Shown piece after piece: positions 29,074 through 64,000 of a stretch of 64,000 nucleotides of DNA (the stretch's first letter is position 1; every line of letters begins with the position of its first letter). The position numbers and the translations under genes were made by a program. The notes under the pieces are model-generated. The model searched no databases, had not been told where the DNA came from, and worked only from the letters and a program-made list of their open reading frames with translations. The stretch spans positions 210,018-274,017 of the forward strand of contig NZ_HE611016.1 in NCBI RefSeq assembly GCF_000236865.1, read 5' to 3'. Source of the DNA: Senegalimassilia anaerobia JC110. GTDB lineage: Bacteria > Actinomycetota > Coriobacteriia > Coriobacteriales > Eggerthellaceae.

Positions 29074-29421
29074 TGCCGTTTTCCTTCCTCGATGGCGCTG
29101 CGCGTCGGTTGCGCTTTGCGATGGCGCCGGCGTGATGCGTCGGCATGAAGTGAACCTTACCCATGATAAAGGTTGCGGGCCTTCGCTTGACGTGCGCGGG
29201 CGTCGCTGACGGCTTTCGAGAGAAGATTTTACGCTCCCTTAACGTTGCCGCTTCCGCGGCGGTTGAGCGCGGCACGGCGGCAGCTTGTGGTGGCGAAGCG
29301 GGCTCGGGGCGGCTTGCGGCGGCCGGATTCCCGTGTGGCGGGGCCCTGCCATCCCTTACAATATAAGGTATGCATTCCCTTGCGTTCCGCAGGTCGGAGA
29401 CGCAGTTGAAAGGTGCCTTCC
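29074..29421. other. divergent intergenic region, ppx to giant surface protein
   Basis: About 350 bases with no supported gene. A -10-like TACAAT lies at 29357-29362, 60 bp before the surface-protein start; its -35 is weak. Confidence 0.4.
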
Positions 29422-38400: not shown

Positions 38401-39777
38401 GCCTCGTTCGCCATAGCGAAGGCGCCGCAGGCTATCACGGGCCCAATGTCGTATTCGGGCGTGTTCGGCGGCCCGGGCATCGTTTTGCAGAACACGGCGA
38501 AGACTCCGGTGACGTTCGAGCTTGTGCAGGATGCCGGCGGCGACGCGCCCGTTTCGCTACAGGGCCGCTATGCCACGATCAACGCCGCCGGTACCGCGCG
38601 CGTGATCGCTCGGGCGGCCGGGAGCCGCAACTACCTTGCGGCCGACGATGTGGAGCTGACCCTTTCGGTGGCGCCTGCCCAGCTTCTGGTGGCGGTGGAC
38701 GACGCCGAGCGTATGGAAGGGGAGAGCAACCCCGCCTTCACCAGCAGCTTGGTGAGCCGTGCGAACACGGGTGGGGTCGAGGTTCGCTATTCGTGCGATG
38801 CCGACGAGAAGTCGCCGGCTGGTGACTACATTATTAATGCAGGTGTCGACGACCCCAACTTCGCCGCAACCATCGTGCCGGGCACGCTCACGGTGAAGGC
38901 GAAGCCGGAGCCCGATCCCGGGCCGGGACCCGTGGACCCGGACAACCCGGAGCCGGGTCCCGACCCCGACAACCCGGAGCCGGGTCCTGACCCCGACAAC
39001 CCGGAGCCGGGTCCGACCCCCGATCCCGACAACCCGGAGCCTGGTCCCGATCCTGACCCTGACAACCCCGAACCGGGTCCGGTTGATCCGCCGAATCCGC
39101 CCGATCCGGGTCCGGGACCCGATCCCGATAATCCGGACCCCGGTCCTGGTCCCGACCCCGACAATCCCGAACCCGGGCCGGGGCCCGAGCCTGGGCCGGA
39201 TAATCCGGATAACCCCGAACCTGGACCGGGGCCTGGCCCTGAACCGGGTCCGGGGCCGTCGCCCGACCCTGGTCCGGTGAACCCGCCTGCCCCGGGACCT
39301 GATCCCGATCCGCCGAATCCGCCTGACCCTGGTCCGGGTCCTGGACCAGGGCCCGAGCCCGAGCCTGGGCCTAACCCCGGGCCGGATCCGGTGGATCCCG
39401 GCAAGCCAGATCCCGGGCCTGGCCCGAGCCCGGACAACCCGGATGGTCCCGATAACCCGGACAACCCGGATAACCCGAACGGACCTGACAACCCGGATAA
39501 GCCGGACCCGTCCGATCCGTCTAAACCGGGCTCGGACTCCGACAACCCCGGACCTGGTTCCGGCAACTCGGACGACTCGAATTCGGACAATTCGGGCGAC
39601 CCTGGCGACCCGGATAACCCGGACGGCTCCGCTAACGCTTCTGTAGCCGCAGCGCTTGGGCAAACGGGTGACGCTGCCGCTAAGACCGGCGCCGCGGCAA
39701 CCGGTGTCGCGGCGCTCATTGCGGCGGCGGTGGCTGCCCTTGCGGCCGCCCTCGCGACGCGCCGGCGTCGCAGGTAA
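29422..39777 (+). CDS. giant multidomain cell-surface protein (LRR, InlB-type repeats, Ig/MBG, Pro-rich stalk, sorting signal)
   Basis: 3451-aa predicted wall-attached surface protein, probably an adhesin or stalk. Order: signal peptide ending near ASA-GED (residue 29); low-complexity Ala/Gly/Ser/Asp region (30-160); BspA-like leucine-rich repeats (about 165-440, e.g. IGDFAFAACAKL and IGAQAFAGCSSL). About 25-30 divergent InlB/bacterial repeats follow (about 545-2545), each with a F-x-GW core such as YRFVGW. Next come an Ig-like domain (2630-2740, with SYYCRI), a He_PIG-like domain, MBG-like domains (2835-3160), a Pro/Asp/Asn/Gly stalk (about 3160-3405), LGQTGD (3412-3417), a hydrophobic helix and a five-Arg tail. 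LGQTGD resembles an LPXTG variant. A hydrophobic helix also lies inside the repeat array (about 1155-1180). AAAGG precedes ATG 29422. Confidence 0.9.
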   Translation: MKSVGICNALLRVLLSVALVVSFTPIPASAGEDATGAGGSPSASVGEQGSALSEGSGEAALTGGAAVEVVGAAADAGGASSGSDAESPAGEDGDDTATDASSPAGEGADSASSADKGAGEGADSASPEGGETGPKAAGEAADVADDPAERAAGDEPAQQGVLYPFGKLMANGYVYACDEQGDLTKPVDEDDPERNAISARDVTNLIVDYHAANIPKGLCESSTSLTSVRFENDRLDSIGDFAFAACAKLSFISFSDMHIGSIGAQAFAGCSSLTSLSIKKPAEMGALGEGCFLKSGLESTGLGNVKGLTSIPTDAYEGCQNLSDTGLGQNQQIASVGNWAFANCPNLHVTGLETNTSVSQLGDGCFSGSNLDGGLILPSGSQIEELPSRTFADTNLDYAYFRCDHAVLIDVDTFPKRGMQVMVPSDLVGLYRSGFPELNWDGCNGATPVSVAECLKDLRIEHDPNVMEYAEDDKVSLAGMKVTFDHGYGRSSFAYEDLKNCAFAQFIEVYPDDGYLFRSSFHGQRIHMTYDDGEVYLDAYSAEPMREGGNTDLAVDIRYDGALSSGDSATGAGQYKPGETCVVVANATTPGRTFAYWTDEEGNILSEDQWYEFTVERDTLLTAVFADKAQVAPEVHLGSADGRQVIGAKASVVVDGRDMGSSFTTYAGKYVTLTCEYDAAKYHFDHWESSLDGHYLGSRPGDTIEYEAVAGETPIAVLMEYGQVNVSAKSASGLALGQVSGSGTYELGQTVKLSAIPAKGCRFLGWMHRGELMSTEASYAYRVQDFDEVTGWFAFDFSQTWVAVRAASAQPDRGSVSGAGMYEEGTQVTLAATPNAGFAFSGWLRDGEPIEGGESLVVTAESADQTDALVKRSPLYTATFEPIPCKVSYEQTLDTGGRTLMEGVEVPQVTGNLTSEGGQVVTLDAKALAMRDDDTVFTGWLDAVTGERVCESPVYEFTPAGDTTLQARFSLKEVGVHINPAQTTDHSEAYAHLQVDAVSCYRNVGETVQLSATPDNAQFVGWYAADGDDSVAISDQATCEYEVAKPANESAQIEMTPWYSAIPASVVLSVAGTDEDGNAPGYFLTSGLYGIGQQVTVNAVPEPGYVFDYATDALGNTVPAASDGSYTFLLTGDTELVAHFRVAEDEFEAFEALQIALLAVLGTVGIVAAVYGLGEIVDPIIAQAMIDIAGAETIEELAQIGKNVLKEIKDIFDDHKHDNDPNKPHGDHSVEIVATAHPAEGGIVRGGGIHFEGTIAELEAVPNPGYRFVCWKEDGVERSVSQRMQIRITDATPEVVAMTAVFERNVRITTSAEVTGVDAGIPTGCNATPDVQTPRQGQEAKVIATEGEGYAFVGWFEDGIEVSKAPVYVFPAEIDRHLVAKFRKADRTIVVGADPDEGAQVLCDGVPVEGGVVRAADGDILTFTAVPAARVDDPEKKYKLVEWRKSDDSGRTVIDRGDTCEYRVDGNGRVTAVMDGKDEHSVRAAADPVEGGMATLKNGESVGEVLDVPEGESVTATAEAREGYLFDGWYISYGAADVAPTFASHDQTYTFAPVADCTVTARFQRLCKVSVVAEPVDQLAGKYTVTGDGYCESGKPVTLSVKLADDVRDKFTFKGWYLGDSGVPMGTDPDHLEFTPEQDTVVRAVFAAKRYRISVETNSHLVERGSVEIEGHPGVDAVMAEYGSTVTIKANPNEGFRFAHWKDGSRKKHPEQQLTVRVTEDQTYKAVFKGAEPEVVIAADTWLGGTVTCNGIEVTPATDSFSLGQTLHLKAEPKTGYFFWGWYVNGIFTSLDMECDVVAKGLTAKSERCTVTAAFKPYEVVCLPVASPADGGSVRASRVFTERGAEVALKAQASPGYEFAGWYSATGELESFEPEFTCRLMRSHVHVAHFEERSYEVSAVPAVADGDGSLVENRSAGWVEGAGTVGAGYSSALSAHALSGYAFEYWADAKGNVVSRDADYRFVPSSDTKLSAVFAAKQFTVNVSAGEGYGSATGSGTYAAGEVACVSAIPAAGAHFVGWFSGGVCLSTDATYRFPVSADIDLEAVFGMGSFTVTTIASPAEAGYVSGFGGFDEGQRTTLSATAKPGFTFDCWRDAQGAQVSGLPECTVTVTGDAAYTACFTRNSYGVSLSSNVEGIGELSGEGVYEFGQVVHIQARQTDDRRFVGWQLVGADGSKTHFADDADTWFVLDEDLVESLDDGVLELEAQFADPYEVAVKATPVVKGKSTNRRCRVQGTGAYEAGETVTLNAVAGLGYRFVGWTSDREGHAVVSTDEVLGFEAESDVMYYAQFEADGQVTITASQSSILRGKAFLTSGNGLTSATKTCDKGDPFVAMAIPWSTYRFSHWINDAGAVLSYNAVYVGIAQQDMQLTAVFYDAGFDLQVDTYPASAGFSTVVPFTGDGYLTATWMVTIPFPGWRFRYWIDERGAPVGFSPVIVRPAVANKTYTAYYVRDSWNVVAVDPRDGGHIDGSSENDEWGCALVDKVENGSSCTLRAVPDEGYVFDGWYAIGKDGAAGSRPVSTDAAWTFTPEDDVTVAARFAETPKLEVKASAVNGMVDPASAAVPQGGSASFTATPYDGCYLERATVVDVRDGSISDSVELDIADYQGGSYRVTLNDIDAPQRLAFSFARAGQPVVKAQPQGASVHEGEAATLSVAADAAEEVLAHEEVSCGAAASHELGYQWFRVFDGGEDVALEGETSASLTFDRAAAADAGSYYCRITQTYLGTATSVETDRAEVSIAKREDLAFNACGLPVATAHSKYVGAIKPATGGTAPYTYAVAPDSALPEGLHLEVAEDGAVRITGTPESAGVFGFDITCSDSADQTCVARFALTMAPQKADLSFAEANFVYDGQPQAPELKGVPDGCAGSVKLSFTGTGDTRYSSSTAPTDAGTYRVVAGLAANGYVGRTVAEFAIAQKPVSFDIAAVDCVYDGNAHGVQVDAHELSERDYSVTYEGADGTDGTVYGPTFEAPRDSGSYVATARVENPNLVGEQKASFAIAKAPQAITGPMSYSGVFGGPGIVLQNTAKTPVTFELVQDAGGDAPVSLQGRYATINAAGTARVIARAAGSRNYLAADDVELTLSVAPAQLLVAVDDAERMEGESNPAFTSSLVSRANTGGVEVRYSCDADEKSPAGDYIINAGVDDPNFAATIVPGTLTVKAKPEPDPGPGPVDPDNPEPGPDPDNPEPGPDPDNPEPGPTPDPDNPEPGPDPDPDNPEPGPVDPPNPPDPGPGPDPDNPDPGPGPDPDNPEPGPGPEPGPDNPDNPEPGPGPGPEPGPGPSPDPGPVNPPAPGPDPDPPNPPDPGPGPGPGPEPEPGPNPGPDPVDPGKPDPGPGPSPDNPDGPDNPDNPDNPNGPDNPDKPDPSDPSKPGSDSDNPGPGSGNSDDSNSDNSGDPGDPDNPDGSANASVAAALGQTGDAAAKTGAAATGVAALIAAAVAALAAALATRRRRR
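38905..39640 (+). repeat. tandem DNA repeats encoding the Pro-rich stalk
   Basis: Degenerate units encode PDPDNPEPGP, then PGPGP and finally NPDNPD runs. The first copies (38935-39075) are nearly identical at DNA level, so length variation between strains is likely. Confidence 0.85.
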
Positions 39778-51437: not shown

Positions 51438-52199
51438 ATGATGGTGGATAGGGAAACGTTTGTGCAGGTGGCGCCCTGGCTGGCGATTGCCGGCAACGCG
51501 CTTTTGACGCCGCCCTTGCAGGCAGGTGTGCAGAGTGCGGCTATATTTGATGCTTGCCTATGGGAAGTGCTTGCGGCGTGCGAAGACGCCGAGGTGGCGA
51601 ATGCGGCAGATAAGCTGGTGAAGTATCTTGACGGGCGCGAAGAGGCGGCGGCCGCGTCGCGGGAAGCGCAAACCGGTGTTTGTGTTTTAGACGCCAGGGA
51701 TGGCGCGAGTAATCTTGATGATCGAGTGCAACGCGCATCGGTGGAGTTCGCGCATCTGTTCGTGGGGCCGCCGAAACCGGCTGTTGCCCCGTGGGAGACG
51801 TTTTACTGCCAGCAGGGTTGTGCCGTCGGGTTCGGCGAGGCGACTCATCAAATGCGCGCGGCCTTGCGCGACAACGGTTTGGAGTTGGCGCAGGCGGGAA
51901 GACAGTACGAGGACCATATGGGCATCGAGCTTCTGCTGGCAAGCGAATTATGCCGCCGAGTAGGTGAAGGCGAGGATTGGGGAGCAGATGCAGGGTGTGT
52001 TCCCTCTGCTGCGAGCGAAGGCGCGGATGCGAATACGCAAAACGCCCTGAGCGCGGCGCAGCATGCTGTCGACTTCGTGCGCACCCGCCCGCTTTCCTGG
52101 ATGCCAGCCTTGCGCGAAGCGGTAGAACGTGAATCCCCCAACGGTTTTTACGCATCTCTGTTGCAGCTAACCCAAGCGTTGTTGGAACTGGTTGCGTAA
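51438..52199 (+). CDS. TorD/DmsD-family redox enzyme maturation chaperone
   Basis: Cytoplasmic chaperone that guards the Tat signal and helps cofactor insertion into the partner reductase. The 253-aa protein has the family core EFAHLFVGPPKPAVAPWETFY followed by the helical bundle; the middle region has YEDHMGIELLLASELC, and the last helix FVRTRPLSWMPALREAV replaces the usual Hx2WxP motif. An insert of about 30 acidic residues (residues 65-90) is not typical. The start may be ATG 51438 or 51441. Fourth position after the dms-like genes supports the role. Confidence 0.82.
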   Translation: MMVDRETFVQVAPWLAIAGNALLTPPLQAGVQSAAIFDACLWEVLAACEDAEVANAADKLVKYLDGREEAAAASREAQTGVCVLDARDGASNLDDRVQRASVEFAHLFVGPPKPAVAPWETFYCQQGCAVGFGEATHQMRAALRDNGLELAQAGRQYEDHMGIELLLASELCRRVGEGEDWGADAGCVPSAASEGADANTQNALSAAQHAVDFVRTRPLSWMPALREAVERESPNGFYASLLQLTQALLELVA

Positions 52200-52296: not shown

Positions 52297-52500
52297 TTGC
52301 GTGCAATCCGGAACCTCGAAAACGGCGATAGCGCGGCAGCGGCGGCGGATTTGAGGCGCACTGAAACGTGCTTGCGCCAGCACATGCTGGCCTGGTTTCC
52401 TGATTTCTCTGAGCGAACCATGCAGCTTGTCCAGACCCGTTTCTATCGCGGTGTTTTGCGAATGACCATTCGCGAGAACGCGCCTCCGCCCTCTGCTCGT
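52297..52500 (+). pseudogene. C-terminal remnant of a second TorD-like chaperone
   Basis: The frame reads LRQHMLAWFPDFSERT and FYRGVLRMTIRE, which fit the last helices of TorD proteins better than the intact gene does. It has no proper start, is less than a third of the normal length, and runs into the GAAC repeat and direct repeat. Probably the remains of a duplicate or of a replaced chaperone. Confidence 0.6.
52476..52498 (-). repeat. GAAC...GTTC intergenic repeat, copy 2 (inverted)
   Basis: Reverse complement of the copy at 54077-54099 with four mismatches in 23. It sits directly before direct-repeat copy 1. Confidence 0.55.
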
Positions 52501-52580
52501 CCTTGCGCCCGAGAAGCGGCAGGCGGCTCAAAAGGCCGCGTTGCAATCTTTTTTGCGATGCCGAAACGCTAGTGCGGGTC
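52501..52580 (+). repeat. direct repeat flanking the HipA-like gene, copy 1
   Basis: 80 bases similar (about 85%) to 54109-54189. It contains CGAGAAGCGGCAGGCGGCTC, a GCGGC/GCCGC hairpin with TCAAAAG loop, and a CTTTTTTGCGATG tail. It lies 14 bases past the stop of the minus-strand kinase gene. Confidence 0.8.
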
Positions 52581-52594
52581 TCGGCTTTCGAAAA

Positions 52595-53914
52595 TCACAG
52601 ATGGCGCTCTGCCTGCTTCGCTGCTGCGTTCGACGCGGTGCCCATGTCGGGCACGGTGAAACTGCGTTCGCGGCAGACCTTGCTGGCATGCTTGGTCAGC
52701 GCCATGGCGCGCAGGTCGATGGCGGCTTTGATCTTGTCGATCCTGCCGGGTTCGTTGGCTATGAAGGGGTTGCCGAGCAGGATGTCGCAGGCCTGCTCGG
52801 AGAAGCCCTTGAGCTTGGACGGGTCGAGCCAGGAGAGGTCTTGGCAATGCCGTTCGACCTGGTCATCGATTCTGCGGGCGAAGGGTCGCATCATGCCGGC
52901 GCGCGGCGTCGTGTAGCCGCCGAAGGGCTGGGCGAGCTCGCGGTTGCACCAGAGGGCTTCGCCGGTGTCGAACACCGGCGCCGCGCGGAGCCATTCCCTG
53001 CTCTCGCTGTCGATAAGCACGCCGAAGTTGTTCCAGTGCCTATCGAAGTTCGCCATGAGGTAGTCGACGACGAGCATCTTCTCCACGTCCTCGCGTACGT
53101 TGAGCCCGTGAGCGGCGCAGGTGGATACGTAGAAATCGTACAGCCCGAGGTCCGAGGGGCGTTTCGATGAGCAAAGCAGCGCATACGCCGGGACGAACTC
53201 GGTCGTCTGGTCGGTCATGGGCTTGCAACGGGAGGCCCACTTCATGAAGCCGCCGTCCTCGAGTTCGTAGGAAACGTAGTCGTCCATGCCGAGCAGTCGC
53301 GAGCACAGCACGCTGGCGATCTTCTCGTTGAACGGTTCTTGGAACCTGCCAGAGGCGCGCCCCGACTTGACCAGCACCCGCTGTCCGCCCTCAATCGTCC
53401 AGCGCTTCGGCAGGTTGCCGTTCAGGGCCGCATCGGGCGAGGAGGCGAGGATGTTCGCGTTGCTTCTGATCTTCTCGATGAGGGAGGGGACCGATGAGGC
53501 GTCGTGCGGAAGCAGTAGCTTGCCGAGCTCTTCGCTGAAATCGTTCTCGAAACAGTTGACGTCGCTCCATGTGGAGATCGAGCCGGTCGGGCGAATCCAG
53601 TATTGGTCGGACAGCGATGCTCCGAAACCGGAGGCCATGAGGGAAGCGGCCGAGGGAAAGCCGACGGCGCGCAGCCGCTCGACGGCATCGGGGCGGAAGT
53701 CGGGGATGCCCCTGTTCTTGAACCATATCGAGAGCCTGTCTCGCGTGATGTTGCCGTATGGGTCGACCGACATGAGCGGCGCATGGCCTGCATCGAAGAC
53801 ATGGGTTTTGCCGGTGACGGCCTGGCGGTCGTGGTTCCAGGTGAACTCGGCGACCTCGTGGTCGCGGCACATGAGGGTGAGCCGTGATAGTTCTGGCGGT
53901 CTGACGTCCATCAT
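52595..53914 (-). CDS. HipA-like kinase-fold protein
   Basis: 439-aa protein with features of the HipA/phosphatidylinositol-kinase-like fold. NFDRHWNNFGVLID (about 287-300) matches the HipA catalytic loop with Asp, His and Asn. PVFDTGEALW (about 312-321) fits the metal-binding DxG. A glycine-rich phosphate-binding loop is plausible at VLVKSGRASGRFQEPFNE. The N-terminal 150 residues have no homology I recognise. ATG 53914 (or 53911) has AAAGGAGCGGAG upstream. There is no HipB-like antitoxin gene next to it. Role as toxin, anti-phage kinase or regulator is open; flanking direct repeats suggest acquisition as a unit. Confidence 0.7.
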   Translation of the reverse strand: MMDVRPPELSRLTLMCRDHEVAEFTWNHDRQAVTGKTHVFDAGHAPLMSVDPYGNITRDRLSIWFKNRGIPDFRPDAVERLRAVGFPSAASLMASGFGASLSDQYWIRPTGSISTWSDVNCFENDFSEELGKLLLPHDASSVPSLIEKIRSNANILASSPDAALNGNLPKRWTIEGGQRVLVKSGRASGRFQEPFNEKIASVLCSRLLGMDDYVSYELEDGGFMKWASRCKPMTDQTTEFVPAYALLCSSKRPSDLGLYDFYVSTCAAHGLNVREDVEKMLVVDYLMANFDRHWNNFGVLIDSESREWLRAAPVFDTGEALWCNRELAQPFGGYTTPRAGMMRPFARRIDDQVERHCQDLSWLDPSKLKGFSEQACDILLGNPFIANEPGRIDKIKAAIDLRAMALTKHASKVCRERSFTVPDMGTASNAAAKQAERHL

Positions 53915-54076
53915 CTGGCTCCGCTCCTTTCGTCTGCCGGCAACGACGTGCTGTCATTCTACCGCATGGTCGCTAGCCACGCGCAAACCTGCTCAAAGGC
54001 CGCATCCGCTCCAAGCGCCTAACGGCGTCGACTTGGTGCTTGCTGATAATCCGCTGCTCGCAATGCCTCGACATGC

Positions 54077-54099
54077 GAACAGGGGACGGAGGCGTGTTC
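54077..54099 (+). repeat. GAAC...GTTC intergenic repeat, copy 3
   Basis: Begins GAACAGGGGACGGAGGCG and ends GTTC. Nearest relative of the copy at 6823. Confidence 0.6.
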
Positions 54100-54108
54100 A
54101 TGCAACGC

Positions 54109-54189
54109 CCTTGTGCCCGAGAAGCGGCAGGCGGCTCAAAAGGCCGCGTATGCAGCCTTTTTTGCGATGCTCAGACACTCGTGCGAATC
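54109..54189 (+). repeat. direct repeat flanking the HipA-like gene, copy 2
   Basis: Counterpart of 52501-52580 in the same orientation, 1608 bases away, with the same hairpin and T-run. It lies about 195 bases upstream of the kinase start. Confidence 0.8.
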
Positions 54190-54522
54190 GGGGTATTTTC
54201 TTAAAAACCCATCACCATTTTTGGGTTATATGGGTATCTGACCTGCGGAAACGACATGTTACCCCGATTCGCCGCTTGCGAGGAAATCGGCGCTCAGGGG
54301 TGTTTTCTTCTTGTGGCGTGCGCTACAATCCCAATCGTTGCGAAAGCAATCTGCTCGTTCGAGCGTATCTGATTTTCCCCATCGGGCATGCGTTATGCCT
54401 CGATGCTCTATATGTTTCCCCATTGTTGTGGTTATCGTCGCGAAGTGGCGACGTTGTCCCCTATGCCGTATGCGTCGGGGCGGTTTCATCGTGCGCAGAT
54501 TGCGCTAGGAAGGGAAGAGGAA

Positions 54523-55257
54523 ATGCTCGTTTCGCAGTTCACGAAAGAACGTCTTGGCGCGGCGTCGGTCGTTGCCGCTTCGCTGGAGTGTCGTTTCGGC
54601 ACCTCCTATGCCGCTTCCGACATCGTTATGGCCAGCGGGGTCGACAGCGCCATCAACGCGTTTATGGGCGCGGTGCTCAAGCCCGAAGACGAAGTGATTG
54701 CGTTTGCGCCTTGCGGCCAGACGTATCGTGCGCTTGTTGAGGGTCGAGGCGCTCGCCTGGTTGAGGTTTCGCTTGATGAGGAAACGATGCTGCCCGACTT
54801 CGTCGCGCTCGAGTGTGCGCTCACCCCGCGCACGAAGCTGGCAATCGTGAGCATGCCGAACGATCCGATCGCTATGGCGTATCCGGAAGCTGTCGCCGAC
54901 GGCATCGCCGGCGCGCTGTTCCGCGCCCAGCGCGCGTTCGGCCGTACGATTCTGCTGCTTTCCGATGAGGCGCATAGTGATATGGCGAACGATGAAGCGC
55001 AAAACCCTTGGTGGCCTGCTTTCTATCGCAATTCCGCGGTTGTGCGCACGTCCGACGTGTCGGCTTCCGTTGCCGGGGAGCCTGCCGAGTATGTCGCGTT
55101 GACGCCGGAGATGGCCGACCGCGGCGATGTCGTTGCCGGCATCCGTCGCGCACTTCGCGAAGCCAATGTCGCGTACGCACCTGCCATGGCGCAGCGCGTG
55201 ACGGTTCTGCCCTCGGCCGCATCCCCTGTCTCGTTCGCCGCTCGCTTCGCCTCGTAG
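54523..55257 (+). CDS. aminotransferase-like protein, truncated and lacking the PLP lysine
   Basis: 244-aa product resembling the central part of fold-type-I class I/II aminotransferases. Recognisable are ASGVDSAINAFMGAVLKPEDEV (helix after the PLP-phosphate loop), LPDFVALECALTPRTKLAIV, SMPNDPIAMAYPE (the NPxNPTG-like segment) and LLLSDEAHSDM (DEaY-like). Where the SKSxSxxGxRxGY lysine should be, the sequence reads RTSDVSASVAGEPAEYV: lysine and arginine are lost. The C-terminal small domain is mostly missing. GGAAGAGG precedes ATG 54523; a longer in-frame start exists at 54388. Either a decaying gene or a non-catalytic derivative. Confidence 0.6.
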   Translation: MLVSQFTKERLGAASVVAASLECRFGTSYAASDIVMASGVDSAINAFMGAVLKPEDEVIAFAPCGQTYRALVEGRGARLVEVSLDEETMLPDFVALECALTPRTKLAIVSMPNDPIAMAYPEAVADGIAGALFRAQRAFGRTILLLSDEAHSDMANDEAQNPWWPAFYRNSAVVRTSDVSASVAGEPAEYVALTPEMADRGDVVAGIRRALREANVAYAPAMAQRVTVLPSAASPVSFAARFAS

Positions 55258-56104: not shown

Positions 56105-56860
56105 TTGGCTGACGAGCAATGCAACCATCAGACGAAACGCGCCTGCGTCAACGGCATGAATATCCTCCCGTGGGTTGAGAGGTGGCTTTCCCCTGAACGT
56201 CTTGCCCCTTACCTCGAAGCTAGCGAGTGCGATGCCGAGAAGGCGCTCGAGCTGTACCGCTGGAACGTTGCGCTCGGGCAGTTCCTCATGCGCGACATCT
56301 CGTACTTCGAGGTGGCTCTCCGCAATGCTTACAACGATACGATGGAGGCTCGTTGGGATGGCGAGTGTCACTGGCTTCTCGATGGCGACTCTCCTGTGCG
56401 CAGGCCTGTCATGAGGAAGTCAGGCAAGGGCACGGTGGACGTCAACCGCATCAATCGGAAGATCATCGACGTTGCCGTGAACGGGCTTCCCGAGGGGTTT
56501 TCGAGCGGTGACCTTGTCTCGAATCTGACACTTGGCTTCTGGGTTCATCTTACGGACCGCAGCCGCGAGGCTGTCATCTGGCGAACAGGACTTTATGCCG
56601 CCTGGCCGAAGGGCACGAGGCGCGTTGCGCTCCAGAACCGGCTTGACGGCATCCTGCGCGTGCGCAACCGTATCGCGCACAACGAGCGGCTCTTCAACCC
56701 GAAGTGCGAGCAGCTATCCCCGATGCGCGTGAACGCTGATGCTCTGGCGCTTCTCGGGCAGCTCTGCCCCGAGGCGGCGGCGTACGTTCGAGGGTCAGAC
56801 AAGGAGACTATTGAAGATTTCCTTGCGCGCAACCCTGCGCCTGTGAACGTGAGGCTTTAG
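56105..56860 (+). CDS. Abi_2/AbiD-AbiF-family abortive-infection protein (HEPN-like)
   Basis: Predicted phage-exclusion or toxin protein, 251 aa. The N-terminal half has RWLSPERLAPYLEA and LYRWNVALGQFLMRDISYFEVALRNAYN, the Abi_2 pattern. The C-terminal half has LTLGFWVHLTDRSREAVIW and RVRNRIAHNERLF (about 184-196), an R-N-x3-H motif as in HEPN ribonucleases. The start is a TTG at 56105 with AGGAG at the right distance. It has its own consensus promoter and a hairpin leader. Similar genes protect against phage; the trigger here is unknown. Confidence 0.85.
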   Translation: MADEQCNHQTKRACVNGMNILPWVERWLSPERLAPYLEASECDAEKALELYRWNVALGQFLMRDISYFEVALRNAYNDTMEARWDGECHWLLDGDSPVRRPVMRKSGKGTVDVNRINRKIIDVAVNGLPEGFSSGDLVSNLTLGFWVHLTDRSREAVIWRTGLYAAWPKGTRRVALQNRLDGILRVRNRIAHNERLFNPKCEQLSPMRVNADALALLGQLCPEAAAYVRGSDKETIEDFLARNPAPVNVRL

Positions 56861-56910
56861 CTACTAGCCCCGTTCAGCATATTGCCGCTCATCGTTATGA
56901 GCATGTGAGC

Positions 56911-57000
56911 TACAATTCAGTTAGTGAAACAGTCCTTGCGGACTCTACGTGAGGCAAGGACAAAGGAGGGTCGCTGGAACAACCAGCGGCCCTTTGATTT
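56911..57000 (+). ncRNA. candidate small RNA locus downstream of the Abi-like gene
   Basis: TACAAT (56911-56916) could be a -10. It is followed by a segment with two competing pairings: GTCCTTGC (56932-56939) with GCAAGGAC (56954-56961), or a local AGTCC-TTGC-GGACT. A terminator follows, AGGGTCGCTGG / CCAGCGGCCCT at 56967-56993 with TTGATTTT. No peptide is convincing. It may also just be the Abi terminator region. Confidence 0.45.
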
Positions 57001-57034
57001 TGCTAGGGGATCGCGCGTCATTTGTTTTCGAACG

Positions 57035-57059
57035 GAACAGGGGAGGCGGAGGTGCGTTC
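57035..57059 (+). repeat. GAAC...GTTC intergenic repeat, copy 4
   Basis: GAACAGGGGAGGCGGAGG with the GTTC end, two bases longer than copy 3. Confidence 0.5.
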
Positions 57060-57083
57060 GTGTAGTGGCGCGGGCTGATTGGG

Positions 57084-57131
57084 AACCTCTCGGACCTCAT
57101 CTCAATTGATACGGGAAAGCTCCGAGAGGTT
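57084..57131. repeat. 11-bp inverted repeat
   Basis: AACCTCTCGGA and TCCGAGAGGTT, perfect complements 26 bases apart, between the repeat copy and the Mrr remnant stop. Function unknown; perhaps a terminator of the former gene. Confidence 0.45.
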
Positions 57132-57172
57132 TGTCGTCCTGTGCGGTTGTTGACGCTTGCTAATGCTTTTCT

Positions 57173-57457
57173 TTACGCTGGCAGCCAGACGCGGGTGAGC
57201 GGGAGAATCGCGCGGTCGTTATCGTTGACTTTGTCGTAGACCTCAACGTAGTTACGCACGAAGGAGTCAAGGTCGAGCAGACGAACGGGGACGTAGGCGT
57301 GATCGGCTTCATAGCGAGCTTCCTTGGTGGAGCCGCCGGTGGAAACGTAGAGCTCGCGGTCTTCTGGTCGAAGCCTGGCAATGAACGATCTGATTGCAAA
57401 CGCACTCACCATGGCGCCCTTGCGGTGTTTGACCTTGGCGATAATGCGTGGGCTATC
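57173..57457 (-). pseudogene. Mrr-type restriction endonuclease, C-terminal remnant
   Basis: The last about 95 residues of an Mrr/Mrr-like methyl-directed endonuclease remain: AKVKHRKGAMVSAFAIRSF (an altered QVKH catalytic strand), RELYVSTGGSTKEARYEA and LPLTRVWLPA at the end. The upstream part of the frame is unrelated sequence that overlaps the MFS remnant, so the gene lost its N-terminal two thirds. The usual QVK has become AKVK, so catalytic residues are also changed or gone. Confidence 0.7.
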
Positions 57458-57504
57458 TTTGATGAGAGTGCGGCTACGGCATTGTCTGCTCGTTCGGGTT
57501 TCGA

Positions 57505-57832
57505 GCAGCCGACGATGTCGGTCCGGTTTGCGACCGCGTTGGTCGCAAACCGGTGCTTGTCGGCGGGCTTGTGGCATTTTCGGCGGGAAGCGTGGCCTGC
57601 GCAGCGATCTGGAGCATCGAAGCGCTTATCCTGTTCCGTTTGATCGAGGCTACGGGTGCGGGCGCGGTGTGTGCGGTTTCAACTGCGATAATCAAGGATT
57701 GCTTCAAACCTGAGCGCCGCACCGCCTTGTTTTGGTTCTGCAGGTGATCATGGTCATCGGTCCTGTGGTGGCACCCTGTGGGCCTACCTGCTCACTTCGC
57801 GCAAAGCGCATATCAAGGAGCTGGAGAAGTAA
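57505..57832 (+). pseudogene. MFS drug-efflux transporter (Bcr/CflA-like) remnant
   Basis: The frame around 57517 reads GPVCDRVGRKPVLVGG, MFS motif A between helices 2 and 3, then a hydrophobic stretch to a stop at 57745. In the next frame the reading continues as LQVIMVIGPVVAP, the following helix, then jumps to a C-terminal-like end, WAYLLTSRKAHIKELEK. Thus a frameshift and a large internal deletion have destroyed it. It meets the Mrr remnant head to head. Confidence 0.65.
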
Positions 57833-58009
57833 AACGGCGGGATTTTTCGATCGCGTATGGATTTGCGCCATTTTGTTGGATGAGGTGCGCGGTTTTGCCG
57901 ATGGGCATTATCGAGAACGTAACGAAAACGAGCTTGTTTCAGCGCTTTGAGCATGCTATGAAAAGCGACCGCGTTTAATGATTTTGCAAAAAAGGCACGC
58001 GCTGGTGAC

Positions 58010-58125
58010 GCTGTTCTGCTATATCAACATGAGTCCCAACACCACTTGCTTGCCCGCTGGCACGCTGGCCAGCGGCGCGAAGCTGCCGACAACATCGTAC
58101 CTGTTCGGACCGGAATTCGTCATGA
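58010..58125 (-). pseudogene. MetE-like methionine synthase remnant
   Basis: From an ATG at about 58123 with AAAGG upstream, the minus strand reads MTNSGPNRYDVVGSF, the N-terminus of MetE-like cobalamin-independent methionine synthase family proteins. It then goes straight into PLASVPAGKQVVLGL, which resembles a C-terminal part of the same family, and stops. About 300 residues are deleted in between. Confidence 0.5.
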
Positions 58126-58728
58126 GGGCGCCTTTCGTCAGGGGTTTCCTTAGCTTTGTTGGCCGCTGTCCTTATAGGTGCGGCGTCTATTGCGCGTCCG
58201 GGTGCCGTGCTTCGCGAACGCAAGCGGTATAAAATCGATTTCATGAGCAAGCAGTATGCCTTGCTTTTGGCGGTTCAGGAACTCACAAAAATGACCACTG
58301 TTGGACAGAAAGTTGAGACCTTGAACGATAAAAGACTTCTCATATGCTTGATTAGCCTGAATCCGTTCACCTATTCCATGAATTCCTTCGTTGAGTACAT
58401 ATTTGGATACTCATTTGCGCCCTGACGGTGACTGGTAAAACGCTCATTCGGTATCCTCACAATTTGTCCTAAATTCCTTCAGCTTCTCGGGATATTGCCC
58501 AACAGTGGCCACTTTTTCGAAAAGATGAGCATCATATGCTGCGCTCGTCTCCCTTGACGCCTGACTGCTTGATTCGCAGTTTTTGCACGCCCTATAGCGA
58601 AAGGGCCCTTGGGGCCGAAGTCGCTAAAGGAAAGGACTGCATATGCGAACGCCAAACGCTTCGCAGCCAAAAGCGCGGGAAATCAAAGCTGAGGAAACTT
58701 TCGCGAGTTCATCGCCGAATCCTGCTTG

Positions 58729-58747
58729 CTGTTCAAGCGTTGAACAG
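58729..58747. promoter_or_regulatory. palindromic candidate operator before the MerR gene
   Basis: CTGTTCAA-GCG-TTGAACAG: perfect 8-bp arms with a 3-base centre, 27 bp upstream of the ATG. Suits autoregulation by the dimeric MerR protein. Confidence 0.6.
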
Positions 58748-58774
58748 ATTTGCTGGAACTCGGGAGGGCGGCAC

Positions 58775-59518
58775 ATGAACAACGCACACGAACACGGTGG
58801 CTGGACGATTTCCGAGGTTGAGCGCCTGACAGGATTGCCGCGGCGCGACATCCAGCGCTGCTGCTACAACGGGAAAGGAGGGTTGGGTATTGTACAACCC
58901 CAGAACAGCACATGGGGAAGGAGAACTTATAGCGCACGTGAAGTCGCAACGCTGTTCGTGGTCCGCCTGGAAAAGCAGCAGGGACTGAGTCTCTCCGAAA
59001 TCGGTGAAAAGCTGCGCAAGCACCCAGCAACTGGAAGTGAGGCAGAACCCGGGCTGCTGGCGGTACACATAGAAAGACTCAAAGAACGACAAGAAGAGGT
59101 TGCGGGGCAGCTCCTGGCTGCGCGAGCGTTGCTGATGGCTTCGCAGGGTGAAGAACCGATGTTGGCTGGCGAGCTTATCGAGAACGAAATCGATGCGCAG
59201 GTGGTCGAAGCCTTTCACAAGATGGTAGATGAAGAAGCAAGGCAGGACGGTATGAGTGCTGACTGTGCCGCCCATCGCGGGTGGCTTGCCCGCTCTTTTG
59301 CACCGCTTGTGGAGAACGCTGATTCTTCTGAAGCATCAGCGTGCGCCGCGCTTGCGCTTGCCGGCGCGATTGACGACATCCATGGACGTTACAACGTGTC
59401 GCATGTTGCTGCAAAGGCAATTCTGAACTGGGCATTTAATGCACCCGGCATGTCCGTTGTTGTTGATGTATGGCTTGGGCCGGGAGCCTACGAGCTGCTT
59501 TTGCGGACGCTTCGTTAG
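58775..59518 (+). CDS. MerR-family transcriptional regulator
   Basis: 247-aa regulator. The N-terminal winged helix-turn-helix has WTISEVERLTGLPRRDIQRCCY, the wing region RRTYSAREVATLFVVRLEKQQGLSLSEIGEKL, and then a coiled-coil dimerisation helix (IERLKERQEEVAGQLLAARALL, split). The C-terminal 120 residues form a helical domain, possibly a TipAS-like or other ligand-binding part; cysteines suited for metal sensing are few. ATG 58775 has GGGAGG upstream; a longer in-frame start at 58643 would translate across the palindrome. The lipoprotein gene lies 37 bases downstream, probably the regulated partner. Confidence 0.82.
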   Translation: MNNAHEHGGWTISEVERLTGLPRRDIQRCCYNGKGGLGIVQPQNSTWGRRTYSAREVATLFVVRLEKQQGLSLSEIGEKLRKHPATGSEAEPGLLAVHIERLKERQEEVAGQLLAARALLMASQGEEPMLAGELIENEIDAQVVEAFHKMVDEEARQDGMSADCAAHRGWLARSFAPLVENADSSEASACAALALAGAIDDIHGRYNVSHVAAKAILNWAFNAPGMSVVVDVWLGPGAYELLLRTLR

Positions 59519-59555
59519 TTCGCGGCTATATGGAATACGACCGAAAGGAACCATT

Positions 59556-60407
59556 ATGAAACAGGCGATCATCGTTGCAGCAAGCGCCGCAATGTTTGCC
59601 TTAGCTCTTGCGTTTGCTGGTTGTGCCGCACCTCAAGACCAGCAATCAAACGTCGAGCAGAAAGGTAGCGAGGCCCAGCAGGAAACGGCTGTTCAGCAAA
59701 GCGAACCGATTAAGCCTTCTCCCGATAAGCATACGTGGTACGTCAAAGACTACCGCGGAATGAACGCGGCATCTGTTGGCTATACCGCTTTAGACGAGTT
59801 GCGTCACGACCGGTATGGTAGCGGCACCTTGGGGATCGTCTACGTCAGCGCTGAAGGAGCGTATATTAACCCGACGGACGAAGAGAGTCTGAAGCAGTAC
59901 GTTGTTTACGACCAAAATCTGAAACCCAATACAGAAATCAAGCTTGAGTTTTTGAGGCAGGAAGATGGGACCGAATACGATAATCTTGTGGCAAGCGAGT
60001 CTCAGGAAGAGATAGTGCTTGCAGTAAAGAAAATCGGGGAAGTTGACGGTACGGCACCGTGCATGACCGCAATCGATTCCTCGCCAGATAAGTACACGCG
60101 TGCGTTGCGGGATTACGTTGGGCGCAATCTGGCTTCATGCGGATATATCAGTATGGCGGGCTCGCTTGCCGACCATTATGGTAGCGGATACATCACGATG
60201 AATGTGCTAGCCAGCGATGGAAGCTATATCGAGCTCGATGACAAGGATTCGTTGGCTGACTATGTGGTAGTTGGGCAAAGCATGCAACCGAACACCATGA
60301 TTACCATGGAGTTTAGCAAGAAAGCCGACGGCACGGAATACGATAACCTTGTGAGCAGCCAAAGTGTGAAATCGCTAGACCTGAAAGTGGCCAAGCTGAA
60401 ATCCTGA
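59556..60407 (+). CDS. lipoprotein with a duplicated domain of unknown function
   Basis: 283-aa lipoprotein with lipobox LAFAGC (lipidated Cys23). After a Gln/Glu linker come two homologous domains (about 54-165 and 172-283). Each contains an opening like PDKYT...LRDYVGRN, then a YGSG turn, a GxYI(N/E) strand, a PNT turn and the shared end DGTEYDNLV. Identity between copies is obvious by eye. I do not recognise the domain. The start ATG has AAAGGAA upstream. Located outside the membrane, with the MerR gene before and a terminator after. Confidence 0.82.
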   Translation: MKQAIIVAASAAMFALALAFAGCAAPQDQQSNVEQKGSEAQQETAVQQSEPIKPSPDKHTWYVKDYRGMNAASVGYTALDELRHDRYGSGTLGIVYVSAEGAYINPTDEESLKQYVVYDQNLKPNTEIKLEFLRQEDGTEYDNLVASESQEEIVLAVKKIGEVDGTAPCMTAIDSSPDKYTRALRDYVGRNLASCGYISMAGSLADHYGSGYITMNVLASDGSYIELDDKDSLADYVVVGQSMQPNTMITMEFSKKADGTEYDNLVSSQSVKSLDLKVAKLKS

Positions 60408-60456
60408 TGCTTGTGCAATTCGAGAAGCGCCTACTAGTTAGCAAGTCTTAGATGCG

Positions 60457-60482
60457 GGCCGATGCGAAAGCATCGGCCTGAT
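60457..60482 (+). terminator. terminator between lipoprotein and xre genes
   Basis: GGCCGATGC-GAAA-GCATCGGCC, perfect 9-bp stem, then TGATTT. Confidence 0.7.
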
Positions 60483-60545
60483 TTGGCTCGGTTAGCGTGT
60501 GCGGAGCCTGTTGGGTATGCGCGGAATTATCGAGGTGGGTGCCGG

Positions 60546-60761
60546 CTAGAAGTCGATCAAGTCGCGTACGTTAACTTCGAGGGCATCGGCGAGGCGGCAC
60601 AAAATGTCAAGTCCCACGTTCACGGTGCCGTTCTCGATTTGCCAAATGTGCGTCTGGCTCGAGCCAATCATGAGGGCAAGCTTGCGCTGGGACAGCCCCT
60701 GCTGCTCCCGTAACGTCTTGATGCGCGCGCCCATCCGCTTTCTTCGCTCGTCTGTGCTCAT
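60546..60761 (-). CDS. small XRE-family HTH repressor
   Basis: 71-aa helix-turn-helix protein made up almost entirely of the Cro/C1-type domain: IKTLREQQGLSQRKLALMIG, then SSQTHIWQIENGTVNVGLDIL. No effector domain, so it may respond to concentration only. It is divergent from the membrane-protein gene, and the palindrome at 60793-60812 lies between them and overlaps its own -35. Confidence 0.88.
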   Translation of the reverse strand: MSTDERRKRMGARIKTLREQQGLSQRKLALMIGSSQTHIWQIENGTVNVGLDILCRLADALEVNVRDLIDF

Positions 60762-60779
60762 AAGCGCATCGTAAAAGCT

Positions 60780-60808
60780 ACAATAGAAAAGGTGACTTGC
60801 TATAGCAA
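60780..60808 (-). promoter_or_regulatory. promoter of the xre gene
   Basis: On the minus strand TTGCTA (60808-60803) and TATTGT (60785-60780), 17-bp spacer. The -35 lies inside the palindrome, consistent with autorepression. Confidence 0.6.
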
Positions 60809-60812
60809 GTCA
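60793..60812. promoter_or_regulatory. perfect 20-bp palindrome, candidate XRE operator
   Basis: TGACTTGCTATAGCAAGTCA is fully self-complementary. It lies 32 bp upstream of the xre ATG and about 73 bp before the membrane-protein ATG. Confidence 0.75.
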
Positions 60813-60884
60813 GCAGTCGAAACCGCAGATGATAGGTACAGGGAAGCGAGCGCGAACACCCGCGCCAAAAGGAAGGACAACGGG

Positions 60885-62705
60885 ATGGAACTTCTGCCCG
60901 GGAACACCAAGCCGAAAGCGGACGCACGGTTTTACACACGATACGCAATAAGCGCGTTGGCGCTGCTAGCCGTGTTGTTCTGCTTCGCAAAGTTCGCAAG
61001 CACCATGTCGATTATCGTGTTCGCATTTGTGCTTGCTTTGCTGACCGCAATAGCCACACCTACCTTCGCCTATGTGCTGTTCACCTCCAAACTACATGAC
61101 CGCACCTTGCTTAGCGAAACGGGATATATCGCGAAAATCACTCGAGGCAAAATCCTGCGCATCCTCGTCTCGTTCGTGCTTTCTGTTTTTGCGATAGCCA
61201 GCTTGCTGTTGTCGGTTGTTCGATGGGGACAACTGGAATGGGTAATCGCGATTGTTGGCGTCATCATTTGCCCGTTCGCGTTCATGCTGGCGAACAAAAT
61301 CTCGGCACACGAGTTCAAGCTTGTTTTCGAGAAAACCGGAACACTGCTGCTTGGAGGGTTGCTTCTGATGGCGGCTCTTGGCATCGCTTCGGCCGTCGTG
61401 GTCGTGAACACCGCTGCGCCTCAGGTCAATAGCGTTCTCGAATGTTTCTTAGCTCACGAGAATCCCTTCGGCGAATCCTCGTCGACATTGTTGGCAGATG
61501 CCGGTTTAGTGACGACATACACCGACACGGTGATGTCTTGTTTGCTATCCCATATCGCCGATGCATCGTGGAGCGGATACGTTGGCCTGCAGATCGCCCT
61601 GCTAGTTTGTTCGCTTGGCGGCTTCGTCAACCTGCTATGCACCTGCATGATGCCCGATTGCGTTATCGAGTTGTTCTTGCCGCTTGCCGACGTGGGCGAA
61701 CCAGAGGAACGCATTCAGCAGCGCAAGTTACAACCTGGACTGATTGCGCTTGCAGCCATCCTGGCAGTAGCCCCTATAGCAGCGGCATTGTGGGCCGACG
61801 CGAAAGCTAAGGAGATAGAGTCGATTGACGGCGTTTCGCAAGGAAAGCAGCTTGTGCGGGATCAAATCGGTAAAGCAGTTTACGTCATCGACGGAAAGAC
61901 GTACGACCAAGAAGCTGTCGAGATGGTGCTGTCCGACCTGTCGGGTGAAACCTCGCAGTTAACCAATCGCGTGCAAAACACGCTTGTGCCTTTGGTTAAC
62001 GCTGCCTTCGATAAGCGGATCGAGAACATTGATAACTATCTTGATTGGTATTACTCGCTTCCGGCTGACTACGAACGAGTGATTCGCGTATTCACCGGTA
62101 GTCTAGAAGAAGGACTGCGAAACCAACTCTCAACGTCGCTTTCCCAGGGCATCGATGATTCGGGGCTCAACGATGAAATGCAAGCCTGCGCTGAGCAAGC
62201 AGCACAACTGCAGGAAAAGCTCAAGAACAGGCTTGCGGATTGCGAGGTGACCAACGTTCCTGATTGGCTTCAAAAGCCAGCAGAGTTCAACCCTCAACGA
62301 TTGACGGAAATCCAAAAGCCTTCTGAACAACTTATGGAAGACAGCCAGCGAATCGCTACCAGCGTCGGGGCAGGCGCGGTCGGCGGCTTCGTTGCAAAGA
62401 AAGTTGTCGATCGAGTTGTTGGAGAAAAAGCATTTGCGAAGATGACGACGACGCTTGCGAGGTCATTGGGACTGAAAACCGCGTCATCGGCAATCGGCAG
62501 TGTAACAGGAAGCGTTGTGCCCGGTGCTGGTAACGTTGCGGGTTTTGTAGCCGGAACCGCAATCGGAACCGGCATCGATTTCGCCATCTTAAAAGCCGAT
62601 GAAACGCAAAACCGTCAAACCTACCACGATGAGATTGCGGAAATTATCGAGCAGCAACGAGCAGAAGCCCTAGCAGCGCTCCCCCAAGCGCCTCGGGCGG
62701 AGTAA
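60885..62705 (+). CDS. polytopic membrane protein of unknown function with C-terminal Gly-rich segment
   Basis: 606 aa from ATG 60885 (GGAAGGAC upstream). About seven to eight membrane segments occupy the first 320 residues. A predicted extracytoplasmic helical domain (about 320-470) follows, then a polar stretch with PDWLQKPAEFNPQRL. The C-terminal segment (about 480-590) is rich in Gly, Ala and Val and contains two glycine-zipper-like stretches, e.g. SVGAGAVGGFVAKKVVDRVVG and GAGNVAGFVAGTAIGTGIDF. I do not recognise the family. The Gly-zipper part could insert in membranes. Divergent from xre, which probably represses it. Confidence 0.75.
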   Translation: MELLPGNTKPKADARFYTRYAISALALLAVLFCFAKFASTMSIIVFAFVLALLTAIATPTFAYVLFTSKLHDRTLLSETGYIAKITRGKILRILVSFVLSVFAIASLLLSVVRWGQLEWVIAIVGVIICPFAFMLANKISAHEFKLVFEKTGTLLLGGLLLMAALGIASAVVVVNTAAPQVNSVLECFLAHENPFGESSSTLLADAGLVTTYTDTVMSCLLSHIADASWSGYVGLQIALLVCSLGGFVNLLCTCMMPDCVIELFLPLADVGEPEERIQQRKLQPGLIALAAILAVAPIAAALWADAKAKEIESIDGVSQGKQLVRDQIGKAVYVIDGKTYDQEAVEMVLSDLSGETSQLTNRVQNTLVPLVNAAFDKRIENIDNYLDWYYSLPADYERVIRVFTGSLEEGLRNQLSTSLSQGIDDSGLNDEMQACAEQAAQLQEKLKNRLADCEVTNVPDWLQKPAEFNPQRLTEIQKPSEQLMEDSQRIATSVGAGAVGGFVAKKVVDRVVGEKAFAKMTTTLARSLGLKTASSAIGSVTGSVVPGAGNVAGFVAGTAIGTGIDFAILKADETQNRQTYHDEIAEIIEQQRAEALAALPQAPRAE

Positions 62706-62796
62706 GGAATAAAAGTCGCTTATCGAAAAGGAAGCAAAAAGGTGCTTACGTTCCTAGATGAGCATTTGGCTCTATAGTCGCTATACGGCGCAACTT

Positions 62797-62830
62797 TTGG
62801 ACCTTCTAATGAAAACGCTAGAAGGTCCAA
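62797..62830. terminator. inverted repeat between convergent genes
   Basis: TTGGACCTTCTA / TAGAAGGTCCAA, perfect 12-bp stem around 10 bases. T-runs are weak on both sides. Confidence 0.6.
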
Positions 62831-62853
62831 TTAAGTTTAGCGGCTCGAGCGTC

Positions 62854-64000
62854 CTATCCCAGCAACCACTTCCAGGCTGGCACAACGTGAATCATGCCTT
62901 CGGGGACGTTGATGTTTGATTCTTCGTCGAGTGTTATTATGGTTGCGGCGTTCTTTTCGAAGCGCGCCATGGCTTCTTGCAGCGCGGAGACTTCGCGCTG
63001 GCGCGTAGCTTCGTTTTTCATGCTCAGAGACACTTGTATCAGCTCGTAGGCAATTCCGAACGCCTCATCGCCTTCGATGAAGTCTATCTCCTTGCCGGAT
63101 TTTAGCTTCAGCAACGCGATAGAGTCCACGCGGGAAGATGCGCGACGCCTCATTTCCAGGTACACAGCCGTCTCAAGCGCTCTGGTCAGGCCATCGCTTG
63201 TTGCAGGAGCCAGCGCGCACAGCAAACCGGGGTCTTCCGCGTACACCTTGAAGCCGCCCAGGCGAACCTTTTGCGCGGAATGGGTGAACTCGTACACCTG
63301 GTGAAGCAGATGCGCGTCTTCGAAGGCGTCGATGATGGCAGAAATGGTTGCGCGCCCGGGCGAATAGCCTGCGCTTCTGCTCATGCCGTCTATCTTGCTG
63401 ATGGAGAAATCGCGTCCGCTTGAAGCGAGCGAGATTCTTGCCAGGTTTCGCGCAAACGCCGCGTTCGAAAAACCGTGGCGCTCAACGACATCGCGAGCAA
63501 CTGTGAACTGCGCATAGCTTTGCAGCACGCTGGCGCGCTCATTGTCATCGAGCATTTGAACGCCGGGAAAGCCACCTTGCACGGGATAATCCTGACATGC
63601 CCGCTTCAGAAGCGATTGCTGTTCTTTGTCGAACATTCCTTGTTGATCTTCGAGCACGTGGTGGTAGCGGGCGTATTCGCGAAAACTAAACGGAAGCAGC
63701 TCGTAGGCGATCGATCTGCCGCGAAATTCCGCTGCTACATCGGTGGAAAGCATACGGGATGACGACCCCGTTACGTACATGGTGATTTTTTCGGTATCGA
63801 CGATGCGCCGCGCAGCAATATCCCAATTGGGAACTTCCTGGATTTCGTCGAAGAAGAGGAAAGTCCCTTGTGAGCGGCTTGATGGGTGCAGTTCGAAAAA
63901 AGTTTCCAGCACTTCGTCGATAGTAGAGGCCGTGAAGGGGCGAACGCGATCGTCGTCGAAATTGAAGTAACAGTTTTTATCAGCTTTCGCCTGAAACTGT
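62854..64000 (-). CDS. AAA ATPase with DUF4143-type C-terminal domain (5' end outside window)
   Basis: Partial P-loop ATPase of the AAA_14/DUF4143 type common in anaerobes. The visible N-terminal part has GTFLFFDEIQEVPNW (Walker B with DE) and MYVTGSSSRML (sensor region). These are followed by RGRSIAYELLPFSFREY and the DUF4143 part with a nuclease-like ALETAVYLEMRRR and SGKEIDFI. The frame stays open to the window end upstream of 63912 (reading KADKNCYFNFDD before the first Leu), so Walker A lies outside. Its role is unknown; many such genes are stand-alone in accessory regions. Confidence 0.85.
   Translation of the reverse strand, partial: QFQAKADKNCYFNFDDDRVRPFTASTIDEVLETFFELHPSSRSQGTFLFFDEIQEVPNWDIAARRIVDTEKITMYVTGSSSRMLSTDVAAEFRGRSIAYELLPFSFREYARYHHVLEDQQGMFDKEQQSLLKRACQDYPVQGGFPGVQMLDDNERASVLQSYAQFTVARDVVERHGFSNAAFARNLARISLASSGRDFSISKIDGMSRSAGYSPGRATISAIIDAFEDAHLLHQVYEFTHSAQKVRLGGFKVYAEDPGLLCALAPATSDGLTRALETAVYLEMRRRASSRVDSIALLKLKSGKEIDFIEGDEAFGIAYELIQVSLSMKNEATRQREVSALQEAMARFEKNAATIITLDEESNINVPEGMIHVVPAWKWLLG

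Follow-up and report, generated by a model that had tools for sequence, protein, structure and literature searches.

Minimal mobile elements of Neisseria are single accessory genes that occupy fixed intergenic places and are moved by host recombination. They are defined by their conserved flanking genes, unlike the unit described here, which is marked by direct repeats at the insert itself. Genes that lie between direct repeats, without a recombinase of their own, form the unconventional circularizable structures (UCS), whose excision, according to the accounts that cite them, leaves one repeat behind and was shown by inverse PCR (Palmieri et al., 2013, cited in PMC7843796, PMC5426353). The H47 genomic island of Escherichia coli is small and lacks a recombinase, and its direct repeats are short and imperfect; its deletion was proposed to be driven by the host and independent of RecA. 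The island has several genes and encodes an antibiotic activity, and its excision was detected by PCR only (PMC5426353).

The locus analyzed here, which lies in a 64-kb stretch of DNA (hereafter the window), resembles both systems in that a gene for a HipA-like kinase stands between direct repeats, imperfect as in the H47 island, and no recombinase is encoded in the unit. UCS, as far as they are described in the cited accounts, comprise resistance genes and long, near-identical repeats, whereas the kinase unit has a single gene, and the copies of its 80-bp repeat have diverged by 12%. The H47 island differs by its several genes, antibiotic activity, and PCR-detected excision. The locus bears on the open question of how individual toxin and defence genes are gained and lost when no mobile element carries them. 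No description of the repeat-gene-repeat pattern was found in the literature searched.

Organization of the Kinase Locus

The kinase gene and its surroundings comprise the following features:

51438–52199, plus strand: TorD/DmsD-like chaperone gene, the last gene of a DMSO-reductase-like operon (left flank)
52297–52482, plus strand: possibly what is left of the C-terminal part of another TorD-like gene (weak match to Nitrate_red_del, E 0.13)
52498–52577, plus strand: repeat copy 1 (80 bp, hairpin and T6), flanked by the side of the DMSO-reductase-like operon and by the kinase gene, whose 3′ end faces it
52595–53914, minus strand: HipA-like kinase gene, 439 aa, catalytic residues conserved
53915–54105, minus strand: region upstream of the kinase gene, its presumed promoter, enclosed by the repeats
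54106–54185, plus strand: repeat copy 2 (80 bp), in the same orientation as copy 1, upstream of the kinase gene
54388–55257, plus strand: truncated aminotransferase-like ORF (right flank), the match covering only positions 82–294 of 396

Pairwise alignment of the two copies gave 88% identity over 80 columns with one gap; this bears out the original prediction of same-orientation repeats about 85% identical, the coordinates of which were off by about 3 bp. The alignment score was 108, compared with a maximum of 33–34 for shuffled flanks, and the pair was the only one in the window to score at least 50 at a spacing of 0.9–3.2 kb. A search of the whole genome (2.4 Mb, 30 contigs), the gene content of which points to Eggerthellaceae, recovered just these two copies, both at the kinase locus. 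The family search detected no homologue of the repeat in other genomes of the family, and an Rfam search returned no match; in GTDB genome contigs, two matches to a core of 20 bp were put down to chance. Since the copies differ by 12%, the event is old and the order of events can no longer be read from them.

Exactly one complete gene lies between the copies together with its upstream region, as had been claimed, and the edge of copy 1 is 17 bp from its stop codon. An insertion sequence or composite transposon was rejected, because the kinase gene is the sole gene between the repeats, which are 80 bp long and non-coding. The hairpin and T-run ascribed earlier to both copies were confirmed. The exact stem GCGGCTCAAAAGGCCGC (a GCGGC/GCCGC hairpin) is present in both, with T6 about 11–13 nt downstream; on the minus strand, the T-run of copy 2 pairs into a strong stem that has decayed in copy 1. 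A strict terminator scan called neither copy, so that a terminator function of the repeat is plausible at most.

In a comparison limited to one genome per species, no empty site was found: relatives have DMSO-reductase operons in ten regions of nine other genomes, but both the 80-bp repeat and the right flank are absent from these, and genomes of the same genus lack the kinase locus. Tandem duplication of TorD with the repeat was rejected, as no TorD-like sequence was noticed by eye before copy 2. Further defence- or toxin-like genes occur near the locus (56105–63912), namely an Abi_2/AbiD-like gene (56105–56860), a short ORF matching the end of PDC-S02 (57173–57577), and a PDC-S01 ATPase gene (62854–63912). 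Elsewhere in the window, a 3454-aa ORF (29413–39777) encodes a repetitive surface-type protein with a C-terminal stretch rich in Pro-Asp-Asn-Pro.

The HipA-Like Kinase

The product of the bracketed gene scored 18.9 bits against Pfam HipA_C, below the curated cut-off of 30.5. Its AlphaFold model (pLDDT 89) matches HipA (4pu5 and 3dnu) and the Helicobacter kinase CtkA, and residues N289, D291, R292, H293, N296, and D316 are invariant across 27 relatives. PADLOC assigned it to the candidate defence family PDC-M03A. With the fold and catalytic residues of HipA/CtkA kinases, the protein is probably a Ser/Thr kinase of this type and toxin- or defence-like, its activity and toxicity being predicted from the family.

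In contrast to the HipBA module, no hipB-type antitoxin gene adjoins the kinase gene at the locus; it is an orphan HipA-like kinase. No neighbour or partner gene is conserved in 30 homologous loci. A promoter scan detected no sigma-70 consensus in the upstream region. The GC content of the gene is similar to that of the window, and foreign origin is therefore not evident. A phage or plasmid carrier was rejected, because no relative found there exceeded about 33% identity.

Recurrence of the Arrangement in the Family

The closest homologue of the kinase (57% amino acid identity), in sister genome G001, also lies between direct repeats; these are 210 bp long and unrelated in sequence to the 80-bp repeat. 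A third copy is located beyond the neighbouring DUF4143 ATPase gene, so that the ATPase gene is bracketed as well, and the whole block sits between genes for secreted proteins that were assigned by eye as TasA-like. Further single copies of the 210-bp element occur at other loci in G001 and in G002. Copies of a 200-bp element (L100 6041–6238, 7715–7923, and 9495–9704; L144 1501–1592; L139 1501–1659; L141 1501–1617) are found downstream of genes in these two genomes; the element looks structured, with hairpins and the conserved blocks CGCGCCGCCCGC and GAGACGGGCTTTGC, and has no Rfam match.

Bracketing was then counted across the family as direct repeats scoring at least 50 within 800 bp on both sides of a gene, a threshold set after the first cases had been seen. 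Eight of ~70 HipA-like genes and 10/71 DUF4143 ATPase genes were bracketed (18/141 combined), in homologues of one family that are not fully independent and in loci that partly come from draft assemblies. The true DUF4143 number is somewhat below this value, because one case (L269) represents related genes duplicated in tandem and another (L256) is weak. Among control genes, taken as mechanical ORFs from the retrieved loci rather than from whole genomes, the count was 8/367, and 1/79 for those with intergenic gaps on both sides. Thus, bracketing is about 6–11 times commoner for HipA-like and DUF4143 genes than for control genes. An association specific to HipA was rejected, since DUF4143 genes are bracketed at the same rate.

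The repeats themselves are heterogeneous, from 30 to ~470 bp long, and a repeat family common to all species was rejected because their sequences are unrelated. At three of the homologue loci tested (L161, L156, and L148), the repeat has essentially two good copies per genome, one on each side of the gene. At three others (L150, L246, and L171), the repeats are dispersed elements. The element at L150 (1731–2052, and elsewhere in G017) is 322 bp long, bears a palindrome, and is present in dozens of copies in that genome. The heterogeneity of the repeats and the dispersed elements among them suggest that one mechanism may not cover all loci.

Such dispersed, many-copy elements as that of G017 would be expected if intergenic repeats (terminators, REPs, MITEs) piled up neutrally in the same permissive gaps as accessory genes, the repeats having no role in insertion. 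The kinase locus, where a decayed gap has remains of genes to its left and right, also agrees with this explanation. However, control genes that do have intergenic gaps on both sides were bracketed only once in 79, and the 80-bp repeat and the repeats of L161, L156, and L148 flank the gene in essentially two good copies per genome. We consider neutral co-location unlikely.

At several loci, the repeats lie at the 3′ ends of genes. Next to the bracketed genes of L270, L223, and L232, the neighbouring gene ends in a stop codon at which, or no more than a few bases from which, the repeat begins, and at L148 and L285 it is a hairpin after each of two successive genes; this placement is as expected if the flank was duplicated. 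In G013, a HipA-like homologue lies inside a CRISPR array (L145 6657–11362, with the 36-bp repeat GTTTGATTACCAGTCAGAATGTCACTGCTCCAAAAC), the spacers of which are interrupted by gene-sized stretches of ~590–1310 bp containing the HipA-like gene and other ORFs. The CRISPR repeat begins with the last codons and the stop of this gene (V L E Q stop), and the stop codon of a HicB-like gene at the end of the array is likewise supplied by the repeat. A Cas12a-like gene was noticed by eye near the array.

Direct repeats at gene 3′ ends, several of them hairpins, resemble the att duplications of integrative elements. They could therefore be attachment sites for a trans-acting site-specific recombinase of the Xer, integron, or phage type. 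Yet the repeats share no common core, being of unrelated sequence and very different lengths, and neither an integrase nor a tRNA gene was found at the kinase unit; this explanation appears highly improbable.

Dispersed Palindromes Next to the Repeats

The GAAC repeat that had been reported beside both copies is real, but it is an element separate from the 80-bp repeat: a 23-bp REP palindrome, GAACAGGGGACGGAGGCGTGTTC, the two local occurrences of which are opposite in orientation, the left one being degenerate:

52474–52496, minus strand: degenerate REP palindrome (19/23, 4 mismatches), just before copy 1
54079–54101, plus strand: perfect REP palindrome GAACAGGGGACGGAGGCGTGTTC, 5 bp before copy 2

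In the genome, the palindrome had 27 matches at no more than 3 mismatches, against 0 for a reversed control pattern, and it often occurs in inverted pairs. Like known REP/REPIN elements, the GAAC motif is short, palindromic, and dispersed, and it is one of them. The 80-bp repeat is unlike them and was rejected as a REP element, since it has two genome copies and not many dispersed ones. A widespread REP-like nature, which was to count against the original prediction, thus applies only to the adjacent GAAC motif and fails for the 80-bp repeat, given its two copies and lack of a family homologue. Of the REP matches, 22/27 are on contig C3, which represents about one-fifth of the genome.

Neighbouring REP loci are spaced 0.8–2.5 kb apart in five cases in this genome, compared with 0.8 expected (P = 0.0003). 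All but one of these gaps contain genes of toxin type, namely the window kinase, two canonical HipA genes, and a SocA/Panacea and RelA-SpoT pair. The canonical HipA genes (with HipA_C and Couple_hipA domains) lie in a row at C3:113609–116528 (L281 5610–8529), each bracketed by REP/REPIN elements. At C3:390033–393721 (L134, L125), an AbiEii-like gene is followed by the SocA/Panacea and RelA-SpoT-domain pair between two REPs of the same orientation; the AbiEii-like gene and the pair look like toxin-antitoxin systems.

The excess of closely spaced REP pairs around toxin-type genes, and the REPIN palindromes that bracket a DUF4143 gene in L246, are in line with a REP-driven process. In such a process, the dispersed GAAC palindromes would be the true boundary marks, the genes would be moved or shuffled by REP recombination or by a REP-associated tyrosine transposase in trans, and the 80-bp repeat would be a passenger duplicated along with them. 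At the kinase locus, however, the REPs are opposite in orientation and the left one is decayed, whereas the 80-bp repeats are direct and better matched; moreover, no such REP was seen at the repeats of the G001, L161, L156, L148, and L270 loci. We regard a REP-driven origin as rather doubtful.

Proposed Mode of Insertion

We give an even chance to the interpretation that the kinase gene is a repeat-bracketed single-gene insertion without a recombinase. It is built on observed features, namely a repeat present in just two copies, a kinase with the HipA fold and catalytic residues, and the enrichment of the arrangement across the family. The arrangement recurs, with a different repeat at the closest homologue and with enrichment over controls, and this supports the insertion unit of the original prediction. 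Exchange of cassettes, also suggested there, is unsupported, as no alternative gene was seen between these 80-bp repeats.

The inserted unit would consist of the gene, its upstream region, and one repeat, about 1.6 kb in all, placed in the gap downstream of the DMSO-reductase-like operon. The ancestral gap most likely held a single, pre-existing terminator-like intergenic repeat, which would have been duplicated when the gene arrived. The unit encodes no recombinase; recombination was most likely supplied by the host. A putative circle with one repeat and the gene could have integrated through one crossover with the chromosomal repeat, and a crossover in the opposite direction would remove the kinase gene. 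Integration and excision by host recombination at a repeat is the simplest account, in keeping with those given for UCS and the H47 island; from established biology, loss of the gene by recombination between the 80-bp repeats is plausible.

Across the family, similar repeat-gene-repeat arrangements recur around accessory toxin- and defence-like genes, which suggests one-gene insertions that bring no recombinase with them. With the bracketed loci and the controls assembled here, precise loss, with one repeat remaining, and circle formation become testable. As a tentative and more general proposal, the family may gain and shed single accessory genes (HipA-type kinases, DUF4143 ATPases, and toxin pairs) as units free of a recombinase, each insertion duplicating an intergenic repeat or the 3′ end of a neighbour, at many unrelated sites; this would be a general, undescribed route that uses whatever repeat is there, even CRISPR repeats.
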